Of a stretch of 42,548 nucleotides of DNA, positions 4,897-9,224 are shown one piece after another (the stretch's first letter is position 1; each line of letters begins with the position of its first letter). The stretch lies in the IMG/VR virus record IMGVR_UViG_3300042562_000248, positions 1-42,548 of that record; one strand, written 5' to 3'. Below the pieces are notes generated by a model. It was given only the letters and a program-made list of their open reading frames with translations. It was not told the DNA's origin and made no database searches. The translations under genes were made by a program, and so were the position numbers. Source of the stretch: a virus.

Positions 4897-5197
4897 ATTG
4901 GTGTCGATTATTTTAAATTAGTGTCGCTCTAGTGTCGTTTTTAAAAAAGTTTGTCATGGTCTTAAGTCTTGATACCAAAGGGCTAAGAAGGATTTTATCA
5001 TTTCATTCTGATTTTTTTTATGATTATGAGAAAAAAAAAAGAATTTAAAAAGGGGAGATGTATATAGAGCTAGTATTGACTATAAAAACGACACCTCGAC
5101 ACTAATTTACGTTAAGTATTATATTCATTGGGTTTATGTGTTTTATTTTCGTCGTAAAATCGTCACAACGTCGACACCAATATATAATAAACGACAC
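4897..5197. repeat. Inverted clusters of GTGTCG/CGACAC motifs (iteron-like)
   Basis: GTGTCG occurs at 4901, 4921 and 4932; its complement CGACAC occurs at 5089, 5097, 5172 and 5192. The left pair reads AATTA-GTGTCG-CTCTA-GTGTCG-TTTTT (4916-4942). The complement of 5084-5107 reads AATTA-GTGTCG-AG-GTGTCG-TTTTT, so the two arms match including their flanks. The outer copies share ATTGGTGTCGA (4897-4907 and, inverted, 5171-5181). Seven copies of a 6-mer in 300 bases, all left copies in one orientation and all right copies in the other, is not expected by chance. Candidate binding sites for a replication initiator or a repressor. Confidence 0.75.
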
Positions 5198-5212
5198 TAA
5201 AATAATATATTG

Positions 5213-5220
5213 TATCTTTG
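5213..5220 (+). promoter_or_regulatory. Promoter -7 box TATCTTTG
   Basis: This is an exact TAnnTTTG box. The last CGACAC motif (5192-5197) lies 15 bases upstream, where an activator or repressor would act. Transcription would begin just before the first hairpin of the structured leader (5230) and read the zinc-ribbon gene at 5336. Confidence 0.6.
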
Positions 5221-5229
5221 TACTTCAAA

Positions 5230-5300
5230 AGTTGCCCTTCGATAATTGCAACTAAAAAACATTAGCCCATTAATTTGAGTAACGAGGTCGAAGGCGTTAC
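5230..5300 (+). ncRNA. Structured 5' leader: two hairpins with complementary loops (kissing-loop candidate 1)
   Basis: Hairpin 1 has stem AGTTGC/GCAACT (5230-5235 with 5248-5253). Hairpin 2 has stem GTAACG/CGTTAC (5279-5284 with 5295-5300). Loop 1 begins CCTTCGA (5236-5242) and loop 2 ends TCGAAGG (5288-5294); these are perfect complements over 7 bases. The leader lies directly behind a -7 box and 35 bases before the ATG at 5336. The same layout occurs upstream of the HNH gene (5947-6024) with unrelated loop sequence, which supports a selected structure rather than chance. Confidence 0.6.
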
Positions 5301-5335
5301 AATATAATTGGTGGGTATTTTTAATTTATAATATT

Positions 5336-5680
5336 ATGATTTGTTTAAAATGTAAGATTGAAAAAGAAACTAGGGAGTTTCAAGAGAACGAGTTTTTGAC
5401 GCGAGGACGCGTTGATAATTGTTTTGAGTGCGAAAGTGTTTACCTCAACTTTTTAATGCGGGAGAACCAACGTAATGAGTCGAGGGCTAACGCCTTGCAA
5501 CTTGAGAAGGACAAGGCCAACGAGTACCGCAAGACGTACCGACACAAAAACAAGGACGTAATAAATGAGAAGGCGCGACTGTATAGGTTATCTAACAAAG
5601 TACCAAAGGTTATTGATCCTAAGGAGTTCACATATAGAGATGTGATCGACAAGTACAAGGAAGACAGACGTACCACATAG
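5336..5680 (+). CDS. Zinc-ribbon protein related to HNH endonuclease N-termini (114 aa)
   Basis: The protein starts MICLKCKIEKETREFQEN. Two Cys pairs, C3-x-x-C6 and C29-x-x-C32, form a zinc ribbon like that at the start of the HNH endonuclease 350 bases downstream (C4, C7, C30, C33). A basic helical stretch follows (YRKTYRHKNKDVINEKAR). No HNH catalytic motif follows, so it is either an HNH gene that lost its nuclease domain or a stand-alone DNA- or RNA-binding protein. It has its own promoter, a structured leader and a terminator (5688-5714). Its GC content is higher than that of the HNH gene. Confidence 0.65.
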   Translation: MICLKCKIEKETREFQENEFLTRGRVDNCFECESVYLNFLMRENQRNESRANALQLEKDKANEYRKTYRHKNKDVINEKARLYRLSNKVPKVIDPKEFTYRDVIDKYKEDRRTT

Positions 5681-5687
5681 ACCAACC

Positions 5688-5714
5688 AACCCCGCCTGAT
5701 ACGTGGGGTTTTTT
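5688..5714 (+). terminator. Rho-independent terminator after the zinc-ribbon gene
   Basis: Stem AACCCC (5688-5693) pairs with GGGGTT (5705-5710) across an 11-base loop and is followed by a run of T (5709-5714). It lies 8 bases after the stop codon at 5680 and would separate this transcript from the HNH gene. Confidence 0.7.
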
Positions 5715-5900
5715 ACGGCTAGCCTAGCCGACAACAAACGACTACAAGTGGGCACGTGTGTGATGTATGGCCGTGATGATGAGGTCGTCCCTAAGGCGTG
5801 GCAAAAAGCCAAAAAATCTGAGTGGGATTTTGGGAATAGGTACCCCACCCCTCTGAAAAAGATAGGTTTCTTTTCGCGCAACTTTTTCGCAAATCCACCT
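5701..5900. other. GC-rich non-coding island of unknown origin
   Basis: About 49% GC by count over 5701-5880, against about 30% in the HNH gene that follows. It contains the near-perfect palindrome CGGCTAGCCTAGCCG (5716-5730), a TGGC/GCCA hairpin with loop AAAAA (5799-5811), and the pair GTGGG/CCCAC (5823-5847). Both strands carry open frames (plus to 5918, minus to 5983), but the plus one begins with GTG inside the terminator and neither resembles a family I can name. It may be an acquired host segment, a mobile repeat or a structured RNA. Confidence 0.45.
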
Positions 5901-5937
5901 ATAACCCAACTACTATGAATTTCTAATAAAATTTTTG

Positions 5938-5945
5938 TATCTTTG
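5938..5945 (+). promoter_or_regulatory. Promoter -7 box TATCTTTG for the HNH gene
   Basis: This is an exact TAnnTTTG box followed by C, one base before the stem of the first leader hairpin at 5947. It sits between the GC-rich island and the HNH endonuclease gene at 6035. No clear -33 TTG at the expected spacing. Confidence 0.6.
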
Positions 5946-5946
5946 C

Positions 5947-6024
5947 ATTGTAGAGTAGTCGCTACAATTAAAAATATATACAAATTCCAGCATTGATACA
6001 GACGACTACCTGTTGACGTGCTGG
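5947..6024 (+). ncRNA. Structured 5' leader: two hairpins with complementary loops (kissing-loop candidate 2)
   Basis: Hairpin 1 has a 7-bp stem ATTGTAG/CTACAAT (5947-5953 with 5962-5968) and an 8-base loop AGTAGTCG. Hairpin 2 has outer stem CCAGCA/TGCTGG (5987-5992 with 6019-6024), inner stem ACAG/CTGT (5998-6001 with 6010-6013) and an 8-base loop ACGACTAC. GTAGTCG in loop 1 is the exact complement of CGACTAC in loop 2, leaving one unpaired A on each 5' side. Hairpin 2 is followed by TTTTT (6025-6029), so it could act as an attenuator terminator just before the ATG at 6035. Confidence 0.65.
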
Positions 6025-6034
6025 TTTTTACTTT

Positions 6035-6649
6035 ATGAAAATATGCAAAAGGTGTAGTACTTTAAAAGAGTTATCTGAATTTAATATTAACTTAAAAATA
6101 AAAAGTGGATTAGGATCTAATTGTGCTAGTTGTAGAAAAGAAATAAATAAAAAATACAACGACGATAGTATTGAAAAAAGAAAACAATACTATTTAGACA
6201 ATAAAGAACTTAAAAAACAATACGCTAAAGAATATAGATCAAATAATTTAGATAAAATTAAGCAATACGAAAAAAATAATAGATATAAGTCTTACAAAAG
6301 AAAAGTAGTTTTAGCTAAACAAAGAAGAATAGATGATCCTTTATATAAATTTAGTAAAAACACAAGATCTTTAATTTATAAGTCATTTAAAAAATGTAAT
6401 GATAGTTTTAAAAAAAATACTAACACAGAAAATATTCTTGGATGTAGTATTAAAGAATTTCAGCTATACTTAGAGAATAAATTTACATATGGAATGTCTT
6501 TAGATAATTATGGAAAATGGCACATAGATCATATTATTCCAATATCATCAGCTAAAACAGAAGAAGATGTTATAAGATTAAACCATTACACAAACTTACA
6601 GCCGTTATGGGCTAAAGATAACTGGATGAAAGGAAGTAAAATACTCTAA
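6035..6649 (+). CDS. HNH endonuclease with N-terminal zinc ribbon (204 aa)
   Basis: A DNA endonuclease of the HNH superfamily, of the free-standing type common in phages. A zinc ribbon at C4, C7, C30 and C33 is followed by a long basic helical linker (residues 40-110, many K, Y and N). The catalytic part is near the end: WHIDHIIPISSAK with D165/H166, N187 in YTNLQPLW, and N196 in AKDN, which is the common H-to-N variant of the last HNH residue. The size is normal for the family. It has its own promoter, the kissing-hairpin leader and strongly AT-rich codon use. Likely a homing-type or genome-competition nuclease; packaging-linked HNH proteins exist, but it is far from the terminase. Confidence 0.9.
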   Translation: MKICKRCSTLKELSEFNINLKIKSGLGSNCASCRKEINKKYNDDSIEKRKQYYLDNKELKKQYAKEYRSNNLDKIKQYEKNNRYKSYKRKVVLAKQRRIDDPLYKFSKNTRSLIYKSFKKCNDSFKKNTNTENILGCSIKEFQLYLENKFTYGMSLDNYGKWHIDHIIPISSAKTEEDVIRLNHYTNLQPLWAKDNWMKGSKIL

Positions 6650-7634: not shown

Positions 7635-9224
7635 ATGAATCCAAAAGACATCATATTTGATGAAGAGGCAAGAGGTAAATTAATAAATGGAATTACCACA
7701 ATGTCCAAAGCTGTTAAAAGTACATTAGGTCCTAGAGGAAAAACTGTCTTAATTGAGAGCCCTAATCATACTCATGGAATAACAATTACAAAAGATGGAA
7801 TTACAGTTTGTAAATCAATTTCTTTACTTGACCCAGTTGAAAATCTTGCGGTTAAGATTATGCGTGAAGCAGCTGACCGTACAGCTACTAGTGCAGGCGA
7901 TGGGACCACAACCTCTATCGTGCTAGCAGAAGCTATTGTATTGCAGGGACAGGAGCTGTTGAATGACAAGCACAACGTAACAGAGGTTATCAGACATATG
8001 AACGACATCACTGATGTGATAGTTGGTAGGTTGGAGAAGAGGTCTAAGAAGGTTAGCGGCAAGACATTGAAGAATGTGGCGTCTATATCGGCGAATAATG
8101 ACTCTGAGCTTGGTAGTATTATAGCTAATACGTATGAGCAGGTAGGTAAGGATGGTATTGTGACCATTGAGGACTCACAGACATCGGAGACTTACACGAG
8201 TGTGACCAACGGTATTAAGATTGATAGGGGATATACGTCTAACATGTTTGTTAATAACCATAAGAAGGATGAGTGCATCTTGGATGATGTGTTGGTGCTG
8301 GTTACGGATCAGGAGATTAGTAATATATTGTCGATTGAGAAGGTTTTGAAGCCGATTATTCAGCAGCAGAAGAAGTTATTGATTATTGGGACGTGTAGTC
8401 AGAACGTTATCAACACGTTGGCCGCCAATGTGGTGCAGAATAACCTAAAGCTGTGTAATATTATACCTCCTCAGTTTGGGTACAAGAGAAATGAGCTGAT
8501 GAGTGATATCGCGTTGGCTGTGGGGGCCAAGTACTTCTCAGAGAGTACGGGTGATGACTTGAGCTTGATTGATATTGAGGATTTGGGTAAAGCAGACAAG
8601 GTAATTGTTGGTAGAGATAGCACTGTGATTGTACGTTCAGAGGTTGCGAGTGATGAGATCAACGAGAGAGTGTCTCAGCTGTGGGATGCACACAACCTGT
8701 CTGACAGGAAGGGTGATAAGGAGTTTATTAAGCAGCGTATTGCCAGTTTGACAGGCGGTATAGGTGTTATATATGTTGGAGGTAACTCGGACCTTGAGCA
8801 GAAGGAGCGTAAGGACAGGGTTGATGACGCTGTGTGTGCGGTTAGGTCTGCGTTAGAGGAGGGTATCCTGCCAGGAGGTGGATTGGCACTGTTTAGTGAG
8901 TCTTACAGCCTTATTGCTGATGCTGATGATACGATTAATGATATTAGTGCTAACAAGTACGTGGCGATGCATATTATGGCGCGCGCGATACAATCTCCTC
9001 TGCTACAGATCATGACCAATGCTGGGTTGGATGGATATGAGATCATGGAGTTTGCGTTCACGAAGGACTGGGGATACGATGTTAAGAATGAGGAGTATGG
9101 TGACATGTTCAAGATGGGTATTATAGATCCACTGAAGGTAACGAAGAACGCGCTGAAGAACGCGGTGAGTGTTGCCACTACGATACTGAGCACGAATGCA
9201 ATTATAACAATAACACGAGCGTAA
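7635..9224 (+). CDS. groEL: Phage-encoded 60-kDa chaperonin GroEL
   Basis: ATP-dependent group I chaperonin, probably a double-ring cage for folding phage structural proteins in the cytoplasm. Conserved parts visible are LGPRGK (31-36), GDGTTTS (88-94, nucleotide loop), the catalytic aspartate in VDDAV (D398, same number as in E. coli) and LPGGG just after. At 529 residues it lacks the Gly-Met tail; it ends ITITRA soon after the last conserved strand. The first 75 codons are about 32% GC, and the rest jumps to about 45-57% from roughly base 7860, so the gene looks mosaic. It forms an operon with groES, whose ATG is 2 bases after the stop. Confidence 0.95.
   Translation: MNPKDIIFDEEARGKLINGITTMSKAVKSTLGPRGKTVLIESPNHTHGITITKDGITVCKSISLLDPVENLAVKIMREAADRTATSAGDGTTTSIVLAEAIVLQGQELLNDKHNVTEVIRHMNDITDVIVGRLEKRSKKVSGKTLKNVASISANNDSELGSIIANTYEQVGKDGIVTIEDSQTSETYTSVTNGIKIDRGYTSNMFVNNHKKDECILDDVLVLVTDQEISNILSIEKVLKPIIQQQKKLLIIGTCSQNVINTLAANVVQNNLKLCNIIPPQFGYKRNELMSDIALAVGAKYFSESTGDDLSLIDIEDLGKADKVIVGRDSTVIVRSEVASDEINERVSQLWDAHNLSDRKGDKEFIKQRIASLTGGIGVIYVGGNSDLEQKERKDRVDDAVCAVRSALEEGILPGGGLALFSESYSLIADADDTINDISANKYVAMHIMARAIQSPLLQIMTNAGLDGYEIMEFAFTKDWGYDVKNEEYGDMFKMGIIDPLKVTKNALKNAVSVATTILSTNAIITITRA

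Follow-up and report, generated by a model that had tools for sequence, protein, structure and literature searches.

The window analysed here, the whole stretch of 42,548 nucleotides, is a 42.5-kb IMG/VR record of a phage whose promoters are of the Bacteroidota type (TAnnTTTG) and which has a chaperonin gene (GroEL-type, 7635-9224; Pfam Cpn60_TCP1, E 4e-62; relatives in 20 IMG/VR loci). A TAnnTTTG promoter at 5213-5220 lies upstream of hairpin P1 of a first leader, which precedes a small zinc-ribbon gene, and a second leader precedes an HNH endonuclease gene. The features are listed below with the evidence for each.

5213-5220, + strand: Bacteroidota-type -7 promoter element TATCTTTG of leader 1; sequence, and matching spacing in homologous leaders
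5230-5253, + strand: hairpin P1 of leader 1, AGTTGC (5230-5235) with GCAACT (5248-5253), loop CCTTCGATAATT; minimum-free-energy (MFE) fold and P1 pairing in family A
5236-5242, + strand: kissing strand CCTTCGA in loop 1; kiss covariation in family A
5265-5316, + strand: terminator-like hairpin of leader 1, outer stem P2 (GCCCATTAATT at 5265-5275, AATTGGTGGGT at 5306-5316) around P3; MFE fold and P2 pairing in family A
5279-5300, + strand: inner hairpin P3 of leader 1, GTAACG (5279-5284) with CGTTAC (5295-5300), loop AGGTCGAAGG; P3 pairing in family A
5288-5294, + strand: kissing strand TCGAAGG in loop 3; sequence and covariation in family A
5317-5335, + strand: U-rich tail ATTTTTAATTTATAATATT of leader 1, from P2 to the start codon; its U-tail score lies in about the top 6% when set against random positions
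5336-5680, + strand: gene for a 114-aa protein with an N-terminal endonuclease-VII-like zinc ribbon and without an HNH core; PHROG endonuclease families (E 0.0024-0.0034) and homologues in L001-L003
5938-5945, + strand: promoter element TATCTTTG of leader 2; sequence
5947-6024, + strand: leader 2 (family C), with P1 at 5947-5968 (loop AGTAGTCG), P2 CCAGCA/TGCTGG at 5987-6024 and P3 ACAG/CTGT (loop ACGACTAC); kissing-hairpin scan and family C covariation
6025-6034, + strand: U-run TTTTTACTTT downstream of leader 2; its U-tail score ranks among the top 0.3% when set against random positions
6035-6649, + strand: gene for a 204-aa zinc-ribbon and HNH protein, endonuclease VII-like; PHROG endonuclease VII, E 6.9e-23

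The strands CCTTCGA and TCGAAGG of leader 1 are perfect 7-base complements, and the MFE fold of the leader with kissing disallowed consists of exactly the P1 and P3 hairpins, both loops open; the linker between P1 and P2 is A-rich. The original prediction had placed two such hairpins after a promoter at 5230-5300, the second ending 35 bases before the start codon. Sequence, fold and shuffling of the leader region (0 of 200 shuffles reached its score) bear this out, and the ATG at 5336 is 35 nt past the end of P3. The prediction noted this one leader and overlooked that at 5947-6034 before the HNH gene. A kissing-hairpin scan of both window strands ranks leader 1 first and 5947-6034 next on the + strand, also promoter-proximal, with GTAGTCG (5955-5961) kissing CGACTAC (6003-6009). 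The 204-aa HNH protein is a candidate free-standing homing endonuclease. Seven of the window's 10 GTGTCG hexamers fall within 300 bp (4901-5197) upstream of leader 1, three on the + and four on the - strand, facing one another; this cluster probably represents operators of a phage regulator, and similar CGACAC/GTCAC repeats lie upstream of the leaders in L001-L003.

Homologous leaders and the genes they precede

The searches yielded 25 distinct leaders, among which 16 different loop pairs occur, and in the homologous leaders the promoter keeps its position at a matching spacing. Relatives of both genes and of the phage chaperonin led to leaders in L001, L002/L004/L093, L003/L095, L094, L095 (minus strand), L096 (two), L117, L122, L147, L155, L157 and L184, a phage sample skewed towards relatives of the genes used for fetching. 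Searches by DNA similarity, in which kissing was not a criterion, brought in leaders of cultured phages. Seven Flavobacterium records matched family A, as did, less strongly, Tenacibaculum phage Gundel_1; family B matched 46 Flavobacterium records, family C 34 Flavobacterium records and family D 16 records, from Polaribacter phage Freya and Flavobacterium elemo phages. Complementary loops were kept in every leader inspected from these searches. The complete genome of Flavobacterium phage hattifnatt9-1 (39,262 bp) has three leaders, each from a different family and each located in the early/replication region.

Every strong match in the loci fetched early stood before zinc-ribbon/HNH genes. Among the cultured phages, the downstream gene is a DEAD/SNF2-type helicase in snusmum and hattifnatt, an AntA/KilAC antirepressor followed by an HNH gene in Gundel_1, and a metallo-beta-lactamase-fold hydrolase, after RecT, in Freya; others are a NUMOD4 HNH endonuclease and, for family B in Flavobacterium phages, a 70-aa ORF leading into a primase operon. 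The leader is not tied to zinc-ribbon genes: it does stand before that of the window, as first proposed, but also before helicase, primase-operon, antirepressor, hydrolase and two types of HNH genes. The idea of an endonuclease-specific or autoregulatory element was dropped because the DNA-similarity searches found the same leaders before the first four of these, which are not endonuclease genes.

Most HNH relatives from other hosts have no leader. One exception, found through gene relatives, is L051 (with L053 and L076), where at about 2880-2990 the same layout, with the kiss GTAGGAG/CTCCTAC and a 12-bp outer stem, precedes a distant HNH gene after a different, non-Bacteroidota promoter, apparently of the sigma-70 type; this suggests that the module occurs outside Bacteroidota phages too. 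A search of genome contigs gave no relatives of the zinc-ribbon protein and one, distant, of the HNH protein, and a search of plasmids gave nothing beyond one 24-base match at chance level. L091, picked up by a DNA pattern search, was discarded as a chance match and not a leader.

Some loci depart from the common arrangement. In L196 (1380-1495) the kissing strand CCTCTGAC precedes a small extra hairpin and does not sit in a simple loop 1, while P2/P3 and the U-run are normal. The annotated helicase start lies inside the leader hairpin in L214 (2084-2126, snusmum6-1), as it does for the same gene in L215/L220; the true start is likely about 40 bases downstream (MTDYEKFLES...). In L216/L217 tens of bases separate the family B leader from the 70-aa ORF, as if an intervening gene had been lost or the leader served the whole primase operon. 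Promoterless zinc-ribbon HNH genes in L005, L014, L016, L017, L018, L028 and L115 start about 15 bases past a terminator hairpin and U-run, in several cases the one ending an ssb-like gene. In L127, L141, L168 and L194 the ATG of the HNH gene follows a TAnnTTTG promoter by only 11-13 bases, and the messages are apparently leaderless.

Covariation of the hairpins and the kiss

Taken alone, the 7-base pair of leader 1 is modest and not decisive evidence, because a pair of its score is expected about 0.3 times per shuffled 42.5-kb window. That chance complementarity explains it is nevertheless a negligible prospect, and was ruled out by the homologues. Besides the shuffles of the leader region, a scan of 2,013 promoter-like sites in the loci then in the sample gave kissing leaders as its 13 best matches (12 distinct) and one weak match that is not a leader; one shuffle each of 1,991 post-promoter stretches gave none. 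The loops complement their own partner over 6-8 bases, whereas with the loops of other leaders the mean is 3.3, and across the 25 leaders all four helices show compensatory changes.

In the ten leaders of family A, aligned structurally by hand, the kiss is paired in 79 of 80 cells, with double compensatory changes at six of eight positions, and sliding the kissing register by 1-3 bases lowers pairing to 20-40 of 80. P1 is paired in 60/60 cells (double compensatory changes at 2/6 positions), P3 in 40/40 (4/4) and P2 in 49/50 (5/5), the P2 counts depending on the chosen segment borders. The kiss is likewise fully paired in family B (48/48) and family C (28/28), each with compensatory changes at two positions. 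In a five-row alignment 98.1% of cells pair, compared with 88.4% in shuffles and 28-43% in slid versions. Kissing loops were the first recognition criterion for some leaders, which biases their selection; leaders found by a covariance model and by DNA similarity, free of that selection, agree with the rest. The model was built from five leaders with the kissing helix omitted; it picks up the remaining leaders of family A with E values between 6e-8 and 4e-4, and every one of these has kissing loops. This comparative evidence shows that P1, P2, P3 and the kiss are present and that selection maintains their pairing; the kissing-leader structure itself is almost certainly real. The loop-loop helix originally predicted for the message leader is supported by these changes, and the homologues, which might have lost loop complementarity, keep it.

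Every kissing pair is by its nature also a DNA inverted repeat, and with the GTGTCG cluster just upstream of leader 1 it could be argued that the repeats are operators acting at the level of DNA. We regard this as very improbable, as P1, P2 and P3 each covary and are nested so that the complementary bases land in RNA loops, and 16 different loop sequences are hard to square with one binding protein.

The loops have diverged more than their surroundings. When the window is compared with L001, identity is 85% in the upstream DNA and 86% in the coding DNA, but only about 45% in loops 1 and 3; their letters have been exchanged without loss of pairing, through stepwise change or through replacement by another leader of the same family. 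One subtype of family A and family B have the core TCTCA/TGAGA in common, in opposite loops. Such a core makes kissing in trans conceivable, and a compact structured RNA enclosed by a promoter and a terminator-like end could be a separate small RNA gene of about 95 nt (promoter, P1, P2 and U-run), the downstream gene being read by leakage only. This is quite improbable: the unit directly precedes a start codon in the same orientation in nearly all cases, and loop letters vary freely while complementarity to the leader's own partner is kept, which argues for pairing in cis.

Terminator-like anatomy

The picture of a kissing-hairpin leader survives in both hairpins and the kiss, but was incomplete, since the outer stem P2 (5265-5275/5306-5316) and the U-run make the second hairpin terminator-like. 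It appears to form the apex of a longer hairpin of terminator type, and this indicates attenuation of transcription and not a bare kissing leader. In nearly all leaders P2 ends G-rich and a U-run follows, and 24 of the 25 have a U-tail score in roughly the top 6% of the background of random positions. A strict terminator-like hairpin precedes 10 of 19 leader genes and 20 of 523 other genes. The A-rich linker between P1 and P2 is able to pair with the U-tail in ensemble folds, in which respect the leaders resemble classic A-tract/hairpin/U-tract terminators. Judged from sequence, then, the anatomy between promoter and gene is that of an intrinsic terminator or attenuator: a stable hairpin with a G/C-rich base and an immediate U-run. 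Terminators at other sites in the window are compact, and the leader hairpins are longer and looser than those; the U-tail is weak or interrupted in several leaders (ATTTTTAATTT; CTTGTATT in Gundel_1).

Another possibility is that the module is a stabilising or translation-promoting 5' leader, in which the kiss at the 5' end blocks 5'-dependent decay and the U-rich, unstructured stretch before the AUG is offered to ribosomal protein S1. P1 begins no more than about 10 nt from where transcription is expected to start, the U-tail and AUG are largely unpaired in folds, the module is portable between unrelated genes, and Bacteroidota are not known to rely on Shine-Dalgarno sequences. However, the position of the U-run follows the base of P2 and not the AUG, the distance between U-run and AUG being 9-20 nt in most leaders and tens of nt where the family B leader precedes the primase operon. 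Over positions -20 to -1, leader genes are U-rich (51% U, 26% A), whereas the other genes of the clade are A-rich (52% A, 28% U). In the family B operon (hyp-hyp-primase, Flavobacterium) the U-run is kept despite a start codon tens of bases downstream, which suits termination better than translation start. We consider a stabilising leader unlikely, although it deserves some weight.

Masking of the ribosome binding site by a sequestering hairpin of the T4 type was rejected, as the AUG is open in ensemble folds, lying outside the hairpin and 0.6-0.99 unpaired in families A-D, except in L220c (0.41). Leader-peptide attenuation was rejected as well, the leaders having no conserved internal start codon. 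Ensemble folds of families A-D contain no conserved helix competing with P1, P2 or P3, as a terminator/antiterminator switch would have. Because of this, and because the families have few conserved unpaired nucleotides in common, there is as yet no indication of a small-molecule riboswitch.

A model for the kissing leader

We propose that the leader is a portable, cis-acting conditional intrinsic terminator (attenuator) of Flavobacteriia phages, its hairpin held or timed by the kiss. Terminator anatomy between promoter and gene, an open start codon and the absence of a conserved competing helix from the family A-D folds favour this reading, to which we give a probability of about 0.5. Transcription would start a few bases past TAnnTTTG (start and 3' ends being inferred) and P1 would fold first; the P2/P3 hairpin and its U-run would then form just ahead of the start codon or operon, and the P1 and P3 loops would lock into a kissing helix of 6-8 bp. 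P1 could in this way set the speed or stability of the terminator hairpin, and with it the fraction of polymerases reading into the gene. The kiss may either promote termination, by stabilising the hairpin, or delay it, if loop 3 is caught while the stem is still open, and the sequence fits both. Termination by P2, tuning by the kiss, the direction of that tuning and any resetting signal are elements that we infer. A terminator ahead of helicase or primase genes would have to be relieved, which speaks against this reading, as no antiterminator helix or factor was identified.

A processive antitermination RNA resembling HK022 put would read the same anatomy differently, the two hairpins past an early promoter making polymerase ignore later terminators and the U-run being a mere pause. 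The leaders lie directly downstream of promoters, several can occur per genome in early/replication operons (three in hattifnatt9-1), and they are interchangeable between operons. Yet they often precede single genes, and HK022 put sites are not known to end in a U-run; we find a put-like role improbable.

Returning to the conditional terminator, the leaders may, at rather less than even odds, make up a widespread phage RNA class, a 'kissing terminator', in which a hairpin lying upstream takes hold of the terminator loop and so gates early operons of Flavobacteriia phages (helicase, primase, antirepressor, homing endonucleases), possibly answering a signal of the infected cell, with loop pairs differing within a genome to avoid cross-pairing. 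Little is known of gene control in phages of Flavobacterium, Polaribacter and Tenacibaculum, and here a conserved, strongly covarying RNA structure that Rfam does not contain recurs in cultured members of all three groups. The candidate switch is testable at once, as its carrier phages are already in culture, and different loop pairs coexisting in one genome could supply natural RNA parts that do not cross-react. We know of no described system in which a terminator has its loop held by a second hairpin.

Comparison with known systems

The original prediction knew of no riboswitch class with this layout and suggested a new regulatory RNA. The first point agrees with Rfam, in which none of 4,227 families matched at the gathering threshold in the window or in ten representative loci, and none at E<=5 in 5180-6060. 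On the second, the RNA does appear undescribed, its structure is borne out by covariation, and its regulatory role is that of a candidate attenuator. Known riboswitch and leader families, including mini-ykkC, purine, preQ1 and cobalamin, were rejected for want of an Rfam match, as was the HEARO/omega RNA of IscB, the proteins downstream of the leaders being small endonuclease VII-like or NUMOD4 HNH proteins, or non-nucleases. A search of the open-access literature, so that a report elsewhere is possible, returned no description of such a leader, and the main text of the paper on the cultured Flavobacterium phages of families A-C mentions neither promoters, RNA, hairpins nor terminators (PMC7077304).

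In T4, homing endonucleases are kept in check either by hairpins that cover the ribosome binding site or, in mobE and segF, by terminators (PMC2988022). The control hairpins of I-TevI, segB and mobE resemble the present leaders in standing directly before a homing-endonuclease gene, but they hide the ribosome binding site, whereas the leaders leave the AUG open, have a second, kissing hairpin and serve several non-endonuclease genes. In capsule operons of Bacteroides, premature termination in the 5' leader is relieved by UpxY (PMC7819879). These leaders are alike in phylum and in premature termination but are bacterial, and the passage on them in that review describes no kissing pair. The UpxY leaders and the T4 mobE and segF terminators are precedents that support the termination reading. 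Cobalamin riboswitches have kissing loops of five to seven pairs (PMC10907184). As these systems are described in PMC2988022, PMC10907184 and PMC7819879, none of them has the layout of the phage leaders.

In guanidine-II (mini-ykkC) and cobalamin riboswitches two hairpins, or an aptamer and an expression hairpin, are likewise joined by a loop-loop helix; the leaders differ in having no visible conserved ligand-binding core, and their kissing helix is longer and variable. Families C and D, with nearly fully paired loops of 7-8 nt, are like ColE1 RNA I/RNA II and other kissing complexes of 6-7 bp, although the kiss of the leaders is intramolecular, within the message leader. With bacterial and phage attenuators the leaders share a structured post-promoter region and a GC-based hairpin with a U-run before the gene; they differ in that no alternative antiterminator helix was found, and in that the hairpin has a loop-loop partner in the hairpin upstream.
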